Shown piece after piece: positions 13,265-32,987 of a DNA stretch of 34,730 bases. Source of the stretch: Candidatus Gastranaerophilales bacterium. GTDB lineage: Bacteria > Cyanobacteriota > Vampirovibrionia > Gastranaerophilales > Gastranaerophilaceae. Every line of letters starts with the position of its first letter. Position 1 is the first letter of the stretch. A program made the position numbers and the translations under genes. The notes under the pieces were generated by a model. That model ran no database searches. It saw only the letters and a program-made list of their open reading frames with translations, and had not been told where the DNA came from. Location: assembly GCA_944324485.1 (NCBI GenBank), contig CALUWM010000017.1, positions 1 through 34,730 on the forward strand, in the 5' to 3' direction.

Positions 13265-13274
13265 AACAACAGTA

Positions 13275-13312
13275 AAACTTAATAATTCAAAATTGAATTA
13301 TTAAGTTTTGTA
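13275..13312 (+). terminator. Perfect 16-bp AT-rich hairpin ending the glmU operon
   Basis: AAACTTAATAATTCAA (13275-13290) and its exact complement at 13293-13308 are separated by 2 bases and followed by a TG-interrupted T stretch. It is GC-poor, so termination strength is uncertain. Its place 10 bases after the last gene of the operon fits a terminator, perhaps working in both directions. Confidence 0.6.
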
Positions 13313-21614: not shown

Positions 21615-21634
21615 TTACAAAATTTAACTTTTAA

Positions 21635-21677
21635 AAAGAAATCCCTGTCAAAATGTTGACAAGGATTTCTTTTTTTT
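21635..21677 (+). terminator. Rho-independent terminator with a two-step stem
   Basis: AAAGAAATCC (21635-21644) pairs with GGATTTCTTT (21663-21672). An inner stem, TGTCAA (21646-21651) with TTGACA (21656-21661), extends it. A run of T to 21677 follows. Confidence 0.9.
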
Positions 21678-21732
21678 AGACAATAGAAAAGTATCAAATA
21701 AACTTAATTATTAATAAGAAAAGGAAATAAAA

Positions 21733-22068
21733 ATGGCTACACCAAAGAAAAGAACAGGAAAAGCAAGTCAAGCAACAAGAAGAGCAAACTGGAAAGGAAG
21801 TGTTCCTGCAACTACAACTTGTCCAAATTGCAAAGCAATAGTTTTAACTCACACAGTTTGCCCTGAATGCGGATACTATAAAGACGGTTTTGCTTCTAAA
21901 AAAACTAAAGAAACAAAAGAAGTAAAAGCAGAACAAACTGTTGAAAAAGTAGAAACACCATCTGAAGAAATTAAAGAAGAACCAAAAAAAACAAGAAAGC
22001 CAAGAGCTAAAAAAGCTGACACAGAAAAGAAATCAGAAGAAAAAACTGAAGAAAAAGAAGCTGAATAA
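21733..22068 (+). CDS. rpmF: Ribosomal protein L32 with a long charged C-terminal extension
   Basis: Large-subunit ribosomal protein. Residues 1-56 are a standard L32: MATPKKRTGKASQATRRANW, then a zinc ribbon with C30, C33, C43 and C46 (CPNC and CPECGYYKDG). Most L32 proteins end there at about 57-60 residues. This one continues for about 55 residues of Lys/Glu/Thr-rich low-complexity sequence (SKKTKETKEVKAEQ to the end), giving 111 in all. The tail is in frame with no internal stop and keeps the codon style of the region. It heads the rpmF-plsX-fabD-fabG cluster, with an AAAAGGAAAT ribosome site. Confidence 0.93.
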   Translation: MATPKKRTGKASQATRRANWKGSVPATTTCPNCKAIVLTHTVCPECGYYKDGFASKKTKETKEVKAEQTVEKVETPSEEIKEEPKKTRKPRAKKADTEKKSEEKTEEKEAE

Positions 22069-22097: not shown

Positions 22098-23147
22098 ATG
22101 ACAAGAATTGCGGTTGATGCAATGGGGGGAGATTATGCTCCTGATGAAATAGTTAAAGGGGCAGTTTGGGCTGCACAAGATTACAATGTCCCTATTGAAT
22201 TAGTTGGAAAAATTGACGAAATTCAAAGAATACTTGACGAGATTTCAAAAAAAGGTATTCGCTCAACTCGTGGTGGCTATTTTGTCAAAAAAATAAAAGT
22301 CGATTTATCAAAACTTGATATAAAATTAACCCAAGCAGATGAAGTTATAGAAATGGGAGAAGCTCCAGGAACTGCCATACGCAAAAAGAAAAATGCTTCA
22401 ATAGTTCTGGCAGTAGATGCCGTTGCAAAAGGAAGCTCTGATGCGGTTGTTGCGGCAGGATCAACAGGAGCGGCAATGGCAGCATCATTGTTTGGACTCG
22501 GAAGACTTAGAGGTATAGAACGTCCGGCCATAGCTGCAACGCTTCCAACAATGAAAGAGCCTGTTATACTAATAGATGCAGGTGCAAACAGTTCTTGTAC
22601 GCCTGAAATGTTATTTCAATTTGCAACAATGGGTTCAACGTTTGTAAAAAATGTATATAACAGAAAAAATCCCAGAATAGGTGTTTTAAACATTGGAGAA
22701 GAAGAAGAAAAAGGAAACCAATTAGTTAAAGACACTTACAAGCTATTAAAAGAAAACACCATAGGTTTAAATTTCATAGGAAACGTTGAAGGCAAAGAAC
22801 TATTCCAAGGAGATGTCGATATAATCGTATGCGAAGGTTTTGTTGGAAATGTAGCCTTAAAAACTATTGAAGGTTCAGCTATGATGCTATTCAAGCTAAT
22901 TCAACAAGAATTTACAAGCGACATTCTTTCAATGATTGTTGGTCTTTTAGCTAAACCTTTTATGAGAAGAATATACAAGCGAATAAATTATGAAGAATTT
23001 GGCGGCGCTTTACTTTTAGGCGTAAAAGGTATAACAGTAATTTCTCATGGAAGAAGCTCATCCTATGCAATTAAAAATGCTGTTAGGGTAGCAAAAGAAG
23101 CTGTTGAATCAGATGTAAACAAAAAAATCGCAGAAATAATCAGTTAA
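22098..23147 (+). CDS. plsX: Phosphate acyltransferase PlsX
   Basis: Makes acyl-phosphate from acyl-ACP, the donor for PlsY in phospholipid synthesis. 349 residues, normal. IAVDAMGGDYAPDEIVKGA at the N-terminus is diagnostic. AGSTGAAMAASLFGLGRLRGIERPAIA and later CEGFVGNVALKTIEGSA and FGGALLLGVKG are the other PlsX blocks. It is 29 bases after rpmF and 20 bases before fabD, the classic rpmF-plsX-fab order. Confidence 0.96.
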   Translation: MTRIAVDAMGGDYAPDEIVKGAVWAAQDYNVPIELVGKIDEIQRILDEISKKGIRSTRGGYFVKKIKVDLSKLDIKLTQADEVIEMGEAPGTAIRKKKNASIVLAVDAVAKGSSDAVVAAGSTGAAMAASLFGLGRLRGIERPAIAATLPTMKEPVILIDAGANSSCTPEMLFQFATMGSTFVKNVYNRKNPRIGVLNIGEEEEKGNQLVKDTYKLLKENTIGLNFIGNVEGKELFQGDVDIIVCEGFVGNVALKTIEGSAMMLFKLIQQEFTSDILSMIVGLLAKPFMRRIYKRINYEEFGGALLLGVKGITVISHGRSSSYAIKNAVRVAKEAVESDVNKKIAEIIS

Positions 23148-23167: not shown

Positions 23168-24112
23168 ATGAAAAAATTTGCTTTTATATTTCCTGGCCAA
23201 GGTTCGCAAGCGACTGGGATGGGTTTGGATTTATATAATAATTTTGAAAATGCAAAAAAAGTATATGATATCGCAGATAGTGTATTAGGGAAAAAAATAT
23301 CTGACATTTGTTTCAATGGACCAGATGAAACCTTAAAACAAACAATAAATGCACAAAGCGCCATTGTTGCAACATCAATAGCAGCACTAGAATCATTTAA
23401 AAATGAATGTGATATTAAACCAACCTTGACACTAGGTCATTCATTAGGTGAATATTGCGCTATGTATACCGCAGGAGTCATGGATTTAGAAACAACAATG
23501 AAAGCTATTCAAAAACGCTCCGAACTTATGGACGAAGCAACAAAAACAACAAAAGGAACAATGGCAGCAATATTAGGAGCAAAAATTGAAGATATAAACA
23601 CTTCATTAGAAAATGCATCTAATTTAGGTCTTGTTCAGATTGCAAACTACAACGATCCAACTCAAATCGTTATAACAGGAGAAATCGAAGCTGTTAATAA
23701 AGCTTGTGAATTAATAAAAGAAAAAGGAGCAAGAAAAATTGTACCACTCGCTGTTTCAGGTGGTTTTCATTCAAAACTTATGAACAGTGCAAAAGATGGT
23801 TTTGTAAATTTTGTAAAAGATTTAAATATAAACAATGCAAATATTCCTGTAATAACAAATGTTGACGCCAAATTAACAACAAACATTGAAGATTTTAGAC
23901 TAAAAATGCCAAATCAAATTAATTCTTCAGTTATGTGGAATCAATCAATAGAAAAAGCAATAGAAGAAGGAATTGAAGCATTTATTGAATTCGGCAACGG
24001 AAAAATTCTTTCAGGACTAAACAGAAAAATATGCCCCGAAATAAAAACATATAATATTTCGGATTCAGCAACTTTAAAAGCAGTAATTGAAGAATTAACA
24101 GTAGGAGTATAA
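23168..24112 (+). CDS. fabD: Malonyl-CoA:ACP transacylase
   Basis: Loads malonyl groups onto acyl carrier protein. 314 residues. FIFPGQGSQATGMG is the N-terminal signature, the nucleophile is the serine of GHSLGEYCAM, and the partner histidine is in GGFHSKLM. The ribosome site AAAGGGGAG is strong. fabH, which usually lies between plsX and fabD, is missing here. fabG follows after one base. Confidence 0.96.
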   Translation: MKKFAFIFPGQGSQATGMGLDLYNNFENAKKVYDIADSVLGKKISDICFNGPDETLKQTINAQSAIVATSIAALESFKNECDIKPTLTLGHSLGEYCAMYTAGVMDLETTMKAIQKRSELMDEATKTTKGTMAAILGAKIEDINTSLENASNLGLVQIANYNDPTQIVITGEIEAVNKACELIKEKGARKIVPLAVSGGFHSKLMNSAKDGFVNFVKDLNINNANIPVITNVDAKLTTNIEDFRLKMPNQINSSVMWNQSIEKAIEEGIEAFIEFGNGKILSGLNRKICPEIKTYNISDSATLKAVIEELTVGV

Positions 24113-24113
24113 A

Positions 24114-24845
24114 ATGAACGAAAATAAATTAGCAATAGTTACAGGTGGCTCACGTGGTATAGGCAAAGCAATTGCAACTAAATTAGCAAGTGCCGGATAC
24201 AACATAGTTATCAATTATGCAGGTAACACTGAAGCAGCAAATCAAACAATTGAAGAAATTAAAAAATTCAATGTAACAGCAGAAGCATACAAATTTGATG
24301 TATCAAATCAAGCTGAAGTTGAAGAAAATATTGCTAAAATAATTGAAAAATACGGCAGAATTGATGTACTTGTAAATAATGCCGGAATCACAAGAGATGA
24401 TTTATTTATCAGAATGACAGAAGATAAATGGTCAGCTGTTATCAACACCAATTTAAACAGTGCATTCTATGTTACAAAACCGGTTGTTAAATTAATGATG
24501 AAACAACGTTTTGGTTCAATCGTAAACACAACAAGTGTAGTCGGCGTATATGGAAATGTTGGTCAAGCCAATTATTCAGCTGCAAAAGCCGGTCTAATTG
24601 GTTTTACTAAATCACTTGCAAAAGAACTTGGAGCAAGAAATATAAGAGTTAATGCCGTTGCCCCGGGATTTATTGCAACAGATATGACAAAAGATCTTGC
24701 AAATATAGATGAGTATCTTAAATTAATATCACTAAAACGCTTAGGAACAGCCGATGACGTTGCTCAAGCGGTTAAATTTTTAGCAGTTGATTCCGATTAC
24801 ATAACAGGGCAAGTGCTTGAAGTAGATGGCGGAATGATAATTTAA
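24114..24845 (+). CDS. fabG: 3-oxoacyl-ACP reductase
   Basis: NADPH-dependent reduction of 3-ketoacyl-ACP in fatty acid elongation. 243 residues, a standard short-chain dehydrogenase: TGGSRGIGKAIA binds the cofactor, NNAGITRDDLFIRM follows, and the catalytic set is the serine in NTTSVVGVYGNVGQ with Y and K in YSAAKAG. The protein ends ITGQVLEVDGGMII, as is typical for FabG. It starts one base after fabD. acpP is not adjacent; an ankyrin-repeat gene follows instead. Confidence 0.96.
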   Translation: MNENKLAIVTGGSRGIGKAIATKLASAGYNIVINYAGNTEAANQTIEEIKKFNVTAEAYKFDVSNQAEVEENIAKIIEKYGRIDVLVNNAGITRDDLFIRMTEDKWSAVINTNLNSAFYVTKPVVKLMMKQRFGSIVNTTSVVGVYGNVGQANYSAAKAGLIGFTKSLAKELGARNIRVNAVAPGFIATDMTKDLANIDEYLKLISLKRLGTADDVAQAVKFLAVDSDYITGQVLEVDGGMII

Positions 24846-24848
24846 TTT

Positions 24849-25484
24849 ATGAAGAAAATTAATAAAAAACTATTATTTTTACTAATAATACCGACAGTTT
24901 TAAAACTGTCGGTATTGGCATCGGAATTTAAAAGCTATGAAAGCACGATGCCAAACTTTTCTGAACGATCATTAATTATGAAATCACTATACGGAAAAGA
25001 AACCATAAACCAAGAACAAAAAGACATACTAACCTCAAAAAAATTATATTTAGCTCCTGCTTGTCTATTCGAACAAATCAAAAAAAATAATGTTGAAAAT
25101 GTACGATTGCTTCTTGAATACAAATTGGACCCAAATAAAAGCTATTTGAGCGAATATCCCCTATACTATGCTTCAAAATTAAACAGAAGCGAAATTGCAA
25201 AACTTTTAATAGAATATGGTGCTAAACCAGATAAAGGCTTTTATAGCGAACTATACGAGGCAGTCAAAAATAAAAATGCCGAACTTGCTCAAATTCTTTT
25301 AGACAATAAAGCAAAAGTAAATTATCAAGATTCAATTACAAATAATTCAATTCTTTATTTTGCTCTAAAAAACAACATGCTGGACATTGCACAACAACTA
25401 ATATTAAAAGGTGCTTATCCGGATAAAAAATCCGTTAAAATCATAAAGAAAAGAAAATTATATAATCTTATACCTGATAAATAA
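24849..25484 (+). CDS. Exported ankyrin-repeat protein
   Basis: 211 residues. An N-terminal signal peptide (MKKINKKLLFLLIIPTVLKL, ending near VLASEF) is followed by a short linker and about four ankyrin-type repeats (about 75-195): VENVRLLLEYKLDPN, RSEIAKLLIEYGAKPDK, NAELAQILLDNKAKVN and MLDIAQQLILKGAYPDK. It is therefore a small periplasmic or surface protein-binding scaffold with unknown partner. It begins 3 bases after the fabG stop without a Shine-Dalgarno, so it is probably translated by coupling. A perfect 30-base palindrome lies inside its signal-peptide codons. Confidence 0.78.
   Translation: MKKINKKLLFLLIIPTVLKLSVLASEFKSYESTMPNFSERSLIMKSLYGKETINQEQKDILTSKKLYLAPACLFEQIKKNNVENVRLLLEYKLDPNKSYLSEYPLYYASKLNRSEIAKLLIEYGAKPDKGFYSELYEAVKNKNAELAQILLDNKAKVNYQDSITNNSILYFALKNNMLDIAQQLILKGAYPDKKSVKIIKKRKLYNLIPDK
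24887..24916 (+). promoter_or_regulatory. Perfect 30-base palindrome in the signal-peptide codons of the ankyrin gene
   Basis: The arm AATACCGACAGTTTT (24887-24901) is followed immediately by its exact reverse complement (24902-24916). In RNA this gives a 13-bp stem with a TTAA loop. It lies 42 bases beyond fabG with no T-run on the plus strand, so it is not a plain terminator. It could shield the end of the fab mRNA, act as an attenuator, or bind a dimeric regulator. Confidence 0.6.
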
Positions 25485-25486
25485 TA

Positions 25487-26521
25487 TTAAAATTGTCTTA
25501 AAAATCTTACATCATTGTTAAAAAACAATCTGATATCATCAATTGCATGTTTTAACATTGCAAGCCTTTCAATGCCCATACCAAAAGCAAAGCCTGAATA
25601 AACATTCGGATCAATTCCAACATCTTTTAATACATTAGGGTCAACCATGCCTGCCCCCAGAATTTCAAGCCAGCCTGTGCCGGAACATATTGAACATCCT
25701 TCACCTTTACACATAATACATTGAACGTCAATTTCAACAGAAGGTTCCGTAAAAGGGAAAAAACTGCTTCTAAAACGAGTCGGACGGGATGAACCAAAAT
25801 AAAGACGTATAAACTCATTTAAAACACCTTTTAGATGAGCCATAGTAACGTTTTTATCAACATATAACCCCTCAATTTGGTGAAATAAGTTGTTCTTTCT
25901 TGCAGAAACATTTTCATTTCTATATACTCTGCCAGGAGAAATGATTTTTATAGGAGGCTTAGAATTCATCATTTGTCTGGCTTGAGCATTAGATGTTTGA
26001 CTCCTTAAAACAACATTTGGCATATTTTCACAGTAAAAAGTATCCTGAACATCCCTTGCAGGATGTTCCTTTGGAACATTTAAAAGGTCGAAATTATATT
26101 TTTCCATCTCTACTTCAGGAGAAAATTCAGGTTTAATCAAAGAAAAACCAAGCAAATTAAATATTTCAACAATCTCATCTACTGTTTTTGTAAGCGGATG
26201 AACATGTCCCATTGGAATATAGTCACCATCAAGAGTTACATCAATTTTTTCGCTTAACAGCTTTTCATTTAATTCTTTTTTATAAAAAATTTGGTTTTTT
26301 TCTTCAATCAATGAACTAAGTTCATTTGAAACTTTATTCAAAAGAGCTCCTATTACAGGCTTTTGCTCTGGAGATAAATCTTTCATCCCTTTTTTTAAAT
26401 TATTAAACTCTGAATTTCTTGAAAGAAATTCATTCTTAACCGTCTCTAAAGTTTTTAAATCATTAGCTTGTTCAATTTTTAAAAGCGCATTTTCTCTTAT
26501 TTTATTTATTTTATTTTCCAT
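25487..26521 (-). CDS. pheS: Phenylalanyl-tRNA synthetase alpha subunit
   Basis: Catalytic subunit that charges tRNA-Phe together with PheT. 344 residues. The N-terminal coiled-coil arm (about 1-90) binds tRNA. The class II core has MGHVHPLTKTVDEIVEIF, HPARDVQDTFY, ISPGRVYRNENVSARKN, FHQIEGLYVDK, FTEPSVEIDVQC and GFAFGMGIERLAML. A cysteine-rich loop (CIMCKGEGCSICSGTGW) is common in the family. The AGGAGAGAT ribosome site supports the start. pheT is not adjacent, unlike the usual pheST pair. The gene converges on the ankyrin gene with a 2-base gap. Confidence 0.96.
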   Translation of the reverse strand: MENKINKIRENALLKIEQANDLKTLETVKNEFLSRNSEFNNLKKGMKDLSPEQKPVIGALLNKVSNELSSLIEEKNQIFYKKELNEKLLSEKIDVTLDGDYIPMGHVHPLTKTVDEIVEIFNLLGFSLIKPEFSPEVEMEKYNFDLLNVPKEHPARDVQDTFYCENMPNVVLRSQTSNAQARQMMNSKPPIKIISPGRVYRNENVSARKNNLFHQIEGLYVDKNVTMAHLKGVLNEFIRLYFGSSRPTRFRSSFFPFTEPSVEIDVQCIMCKGEGCSICSGTGWLEILGAGMVDPNVLKDVGIDPNVYSGFAFGMGIERLAMLKHAIDDIRLFFNNDVRFLRQF

Positions 26522-32842: not shown

Positions 32843-32919
32843 GGGCTATTAGCTCAGGTGGCTAGAGCGCACCCCTGATAAGGGTGAGGTCCCTGGTTCG
32901 AGTCCAGGATGGCCCACCA
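32843..32919 (+). tRNA. tRNA-Ile, anticodon GAT
   Basis: A full cloverleaf of 77 bases with an encoded CCA. The acceptor stem GGGCTAT pairs with ATGGCCC (one G-T wobble), and the D-arm contains AGCTCAGGTGG. The anticodon stem CACCC/GGGTG holds loop CTGATAA with GAT at 32877-32879. The T-arm CCTGG-TTCGAGT-CCAGG follows. A tRNA-Ile(GAT) outside an rRNA operon is noteworthy only because this species often sits in the 16S-23S spacer; no rRNA is in the window. Confidence 0.97.
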
Positions 32920-32920
32920 T

Positions 32921-32950
32921 AAAAGAGACTTTCAAATGAAAGTCTCTTTT
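32921..32950 (+). terminator. Rho-independent terminator after tRNA-Ile
   Basis: AAAAGAGACTTTCA (32921-32934), loop AA and TGAAAGTCTCTTTT (32937-32950) form a perfect 14-bp stem ending in T and starting in A. It can act in both directions, including for the glycosyltransferase ending at 32988. Confidence 0.9.
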
Positions 32951-32987
32951 ATTATACAAATTATATAGTAATCATTAATTTTTTTAT

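Follow-up and report, generated by a model that had tools for sequence, protein, structure and literature searches.

A perfect palindrome within the signal-peptide codons downstream of fabG

The stretch of DNA analyzed here (the window) comprises 34,730 nucleotides and represents contig 17 of the 1.72-Mb genome (30% G+C) of an uncultured gut lineage of Candidatus Gastranaerophilales. On its plus strand, rpmF (21733-22068) and plsX (22098-23147), both assigned by sequence, are followed by fabD (23168-24112) and fabG (24114-24845), and these four genes presumably form an operon that starts with rpmF. The stop codon of fabG lies 3 bases before an ORF of 211 codons (24849-25484, plus strand; hereafter ank), which opens with MKKINKKLLFLLIIPTVLKLSVLASEF and encodes a signal peptide followed by ankyrin repeats. 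A single mRNA would likely span rpmF-plsX-fabD-fabG-ank. Since the convergent pheS (25487-26521, minus strand) ends 2 bases from the ank stop codon, there is no room for an intergenic terminator after ank; in some relatives (L010, L013, L014, L015, L023, and L029), a terminator is present between the two genes.

Within ank, positions 24887-24916 of the plus strand read AATACCGACAGTTTT|AAAACTGTCGGTATT, a 30-base palindrome whose two arms of 15 bases are 100% complementary and adjoin each other without a spacer. It begins 42 bases past the fabG stop and 38 bases into the ORF, exactly where the original prediction had placed a perfect palindrome in signal-peptide codons. The corresponding RNA is predicted, from the palindrome itself, its fold, and covariation across the genus, to form a hairpin that covers codons 13-23 of ank, with 12-13 pairs in its stem and a loop of 4 nt. 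A second, weaker hairpin (TTGGCATCGG..CGATGCCAA, 24916-24953, plus strand) lies directly 3' of the first and is partly retained only in the closest relative, L003.

The palindrome had also been judged very improbable by chance, and this estimate is borne out: about 0.0003 spacer-less 15+15 palindromes are expected per window size at 30.6% G+C, a number that rises to 0.002 when the arms may be separated by a loop of 0-8 nt. Perfect stems of at least 12 pairs were found 4 times within ORFs, as compared to 31 times outside of them, in 435 kb of this genome. Furthermore, a 121-nt transcript of the site folds at -33 kcal/mol, with a z-score of -6.3 against dinucleotide shuffles. When it was compared with 300 recodings that keep the identical amino acids and follow the codon usage of the genome itself, the z-score was -8.7 and none of the recodings folded equally well. 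Therefore, the pairing is not a mere accident of the codons. A search of the window with the Rfam 15 covariance models returned nothing at the gathering score except for one tRNA.

Pairing is retained across the genus while the letters change

Orthologs of ank, encoding an exported ankyrin-repeat protein, were identified in all 28 genus genomes examined, and in 26 of these fabG is located directly upstream. About 20 of the 28 species carry a strong hairpin at the codons for the end of the signal peptide, mostly built from different letters and with compensatory changes, as exemplified by the arms AATACCGACATTT/AAATGTCGGTATT in L004, GCTAATGCCGATATTG/CAATGTCGGCATTAGC in L017, and AATGCTGATGTAT/ATACATCAGCATT in L024. 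Among 13 scored hairpins, 12 distinct left arms were counted, and the loop length varies between orthologs, with one-sided changes to G.U being retained. In L016, L023, and L026, the letters of the hairpin are unrelated or its place is shifted, which suggests a turnover of the element and not the inheritance of one sequence. The hairpin is absent or weak in six fabG-linked species (L006, L008, L011, L018, L020, and L029).

In an alignment of 17 rows, 82.5% of the cells are paired as compared to 24-50% in slid registers, both sides have changed at 10 of the 15 pairs, and none of 500 shuffles matched the observed pairing, the both-side changes, or the covariation score. Related sequences may beat such shuffles even if they form no structure, a weakness that neither the slid registers nor the test by synonymous recoding has. 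Swapping right arms between species likewise resulted in worse pairing (169 of 204 observed, against a null mean of 157 and a maximum of 166 in 2000 swaps). The original prediction had proposed weighing pairing against amino acids in relatives, and the pairing proves conserved, both by covariation and by a mean synonymous-recoding z-score across the genus of -4.1 at codons 10-23 of ank, as compared to -1.1 to +0.2 elsewhere in ank (codon 16 onward) and -1.0 to +0.3 over the 3' portion of fabG that was scanned. These comparisons of sequences indicate that the ank hairpin is under selection for pairing on top of protein coding.

Further copies of the 30-mer, for which a search had been suggested, do not exist in the genome, even with up to 3 mismatches allowed. 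Since there is no second copy, the palindrome is, as judged from its sequence, a conserved structure rather than an operator motif, and it lacks the many copies of REP- or RPE-type repetitive palindromic elements. The prediction had named the lack of other copies, combined with a loss of the palindrome from close relatives that conserve the protein, as speaking against it. The former was found, and one close relative (L006, protein 78% identical) has indeed lost the palindrome, but relatives mostly rebuild it from other letters. We also considered that a palindromic element of 30 bp had been inserted in frame, and rejected this because the signal peptides of relatives are similar in length and have other sequences at the same codons.

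Association of the hairpin with the fabG junction

In one clade (orthologs L027 and L028, genomes G007 and G026), ank is not located behind fabG but follows another gene, bioD by sequence. Its signal peptides are present there without a strong hairpin, and in both genomes a canonical terminator is found after fabG. Gene order in the lineage with the broken pair thus suggests that the hairpin belongs with the fab junction and not with the ankyrin protein, although the broken linkage represents one evolutionary event, with p = 0.07 for ank alone. In the distant ortholog L242, the hairpin is still located in the signal-peptide codons and has a short U-run, although about 100 nt separate fabG from ank; this would be expected just as well if the element belonged to the ankyrin gene. 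A pooled count, with a hairpin in 83 of 100 linked and 1 of 8 unlinked genes, was set aside, as four of the unlinked rows (L072, L076, L080, and L104) have misplaced starts; without these rows, p was 0.02, uncorrected for relatedness.

Similar hairpins at other tight operon junctions

We extended the analysis to stretches of about 835 kb of the genome, with some scans covering 435 kb of it. Within the 435 kb, strong coding hairpins are concentrated in genes whose start lies at most 25 nt past the upstream stop, where they occupy codons 10-16; at -16 kcal/mol, hairpins were found in 7 of 150 such tight second genes, while the 141 first or divergent genes had none. When counted from stop codons over the 835 kb, a hairpin is present at the junction in a few percent of the tight pairs, and the excess is less pronounced in a second species of the genus, as well as in a different family of the same order. 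A general signal-peptide effect was rejected, as genes for signal peptides show, as a class, no enrichment of hairpins in their early windows.

Three further junction hairpins, situated about 37-45 nt within the second gene, are also kept through the genus. In aroA (L043:15844, minus strand), the second gene of a tight pair, the start-proximal hairpin lies over LSGE..PPDK and thereby spans conserved EPSP-synthase codons, including GGG and CCC, while in ruvB (L039:8857), likewise the second gene of a tight pair, it falls into a variable N-terminal extension. The third is located behind a flagellar-hook-like gene in the signal-peptide codons of an exported protein without a Pfam match (L043:1390-2181, minus strand). 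With its conserved T-run (5.9 T in 8), this terminator-like hairpin resembles a complete intrinsic terminator; it is kept in most of the genus. Changes to G.U exceed those to A.C in the two signal-peptide families; since this asymmetry is absent in aroA and ruvB, it is weak evidence for action as RNA. Additional strong hairpins were observed some 50-60 nt into the second gene of a tight pair, namely in L050:16669 (rlmH-like), L049:1232 (GtrA-like), L189:13213 (acetyltransferase-like), and L174 of G040 (PhzF-like).

Transcript-end features and alternative explanations

With 5 G-C pairs, the palindrome stem is a GC-rich hairpin of the kind found in intrinsic terminators. However, the source genome lacks a U-tract directly after it (the tail reads GGCATCGG), and the site was not listed in a terminator scan of both strands; without a U-tract, the stem falls short of an intrinsic terminator. 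A terminator for antisense transcription from pheS was also rejected, as the same scan was silent on this strand and the minus-strand flank in relatives, inspected by eye, has no consistent U-tract. Hairpin-bearing ank orthologs have a mean of 3.15 T in the 8 positions after the stem. U-rich tails are found in some ank orthologs (L016, L023, L026, L029, and L242). The genome encodes PNPase. A search for the Rho RNA-binding domain gave no match above the family cut-off in 28 genus genomes, while nine control genomes gave matches; by this measure, the genus seems to be devoid of Rho.

The closest competitor of a protective hairpin is partial intrinsic termination, i.e., an attenuator past which some RNA polymerases stop, resulting in less transcription of ank than of the fab genes. 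The T-run of the parallel hairpin in L043:1390, the U-rich ortholog tails, and the canonical terminator at fabG where ank is absent are in line with this, and it may apply to the U-rich orthologs. Considering the source tail, the low ortholog mean, and the silent scan, we regard it as possible but unlikely for the palindrome itself. More doubtful still is a translational element of ank, which would act on the signal-peptide codons as a pause or brake, slowing the ribosome for export targeting or limiting the yield. The hairpins of ank and L043:1390 do lie in such codons, and their distance from the start codon is nearly constant, also in L242 despite its long gap after fabG. However, similar hairpins occur in two genes without exported products, aroA and ruvB, signal-peptide genes lack enrichment as a class, and L027 and L028 have signal peptides without a strong hairpin.

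The two remaining explanations are far less probable. Quasi-palindrome correction is a known mutational process and signal peptides tolerate amino-acid changes, so that template switching during replication could repeatedly perfect imperfect inverted repeats in this tolerant region without any function. This reading is very hard to reconcile with mean z-scores near 0 over most of the remaining ank, with the aroA hairpin over conserved codons including GGG and CCC, with strong hairpins clustering only at operon-internal gene starts, or with the excess of G.U over A.C in two signal-peptide families, even though the latter does not extend to aroA and ruvB. If the palindrome were a DNA operator bound by a dimeric regulator of lipid genes, its perfect dyad symmetry adjoining the fab genes would be explained. 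This is, however, the least credible of all readings, since no sequence-conserved dyad recurs in the genome, left arms differ almost from species to species (12 of 13), loop length is variable, and one-sided G.U changes are kept.

A candidate operon-internal 3' boundary

Taken together, we estimate a probability of about 60% that the palindrome acts as a functional hairpin at an operon-internal 3' boundary and thereby decouples the fab mRNA from ank. The pairing is conserved beyond the needs of coding, its place is fixed, similar conserved hairpins are present at other tight junctions, and the hairpin is absent from the one lineage with a broken gene pair. The presumed polycistronic rpmF-plsX-fabD-fabG-ank mRNA would carry the hairpin in the signal-peptide codons of its last gene, where, most likely, it would halt 3'-5' exonucleases such as the encoded PNPase, and the fab segment would outlive the ankyrin segment after cleavage of the latter. 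Some of the transcripts may, in addition, terminate at the hairpin in species with a U-rich tail past the stem. By either route, exonuclease block or termination, the level of the fab genes would be uncoupled from that of ank. Among the three roles that had been put forward for the palindrome, mRNA-end protection is thus the best supported, through covariation across the genus, hairpins at other tight junctions, and, in one lineage, a terminator after fabG where ank has departed. The binding site for a regulator is disfavored by the single genome copy and by letters that change freely among species while the pairing stays, and the translation brake is improbable.

In Escherichia coli, stable hairpins without U-tracts are thought to shield the mRNA ahead of them from 3'-5' decay; most of these hairpins lie inside the downstream gene, at an average of 107 +/- 56 nt (Dar and Sorek 2018, PMC5927463). 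The ank hairpin matches these coding-embedded protective operon hairpins in being stable, conserved, located inside the downstream coding sequence and, in the source genome, devoid of a U-tract, a likeness that covers the respects testable from sequence. In contrast to the E. coli type, it is closer to the start codon (ending at +68 as compared to 107 +/- 56 nt), lies in signal-peptide codons, shows compensatory change across a genus, and belongs to an apparently Rho-less, uncultured lineage of the cyanobacterial phylum. The stabilizing hairpins of malE-malF and the SRPS stem-loops of Clostridium are likewise intra-operonic and thought to set unequal mRNA levels of neighboring genes, but they are intercistronic, whereas the ank hairpin is encoded within the next gene (PMC5927463, PMC8219983). 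With an intrinsic terminator or attenuator it shares a strong hairpin soon past the stop of an operon gene, and G007 and G026 have a true terminator after fabG; the source-genome stem differs in its missing U-tract. In Synechococcus, most transcript ends fit no known mechanism (PMC13289151), and coding-embedded, covarying hairpins are concrete candidates for how transcripts end or are partitioned in Rho-less cyanobacteria and their relatives. Furthermore, dual coding is here so strong that it shapes the codons of a signal peptide, an effect that analyses limited to the protein would overlook.

Further hairpins in the window

About 100 nt before rpmF, positions 21631-21690 contain a hairpin with a long T-run (AAGAAATCCCTGTCAA..TTGACAAGGATTTCTTTTTTTT), which is present with paired changes in all 26 genus genomes with readable upstream DNA. 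Its 3' arm and T-run overlap a promoter-like TTGACA-17-GACAAT, so that this seems, from its sequence, to be a terminator-like element overlapping the promoter of the fab operon. Perfect intergenic hairpins with a 2-nt spacer were also found at 13274-13309 (17 pairs) and 32919-32952 (16 pairs), the latter just past a tRNA gene; both are probably ordinary gene-end hairpins.
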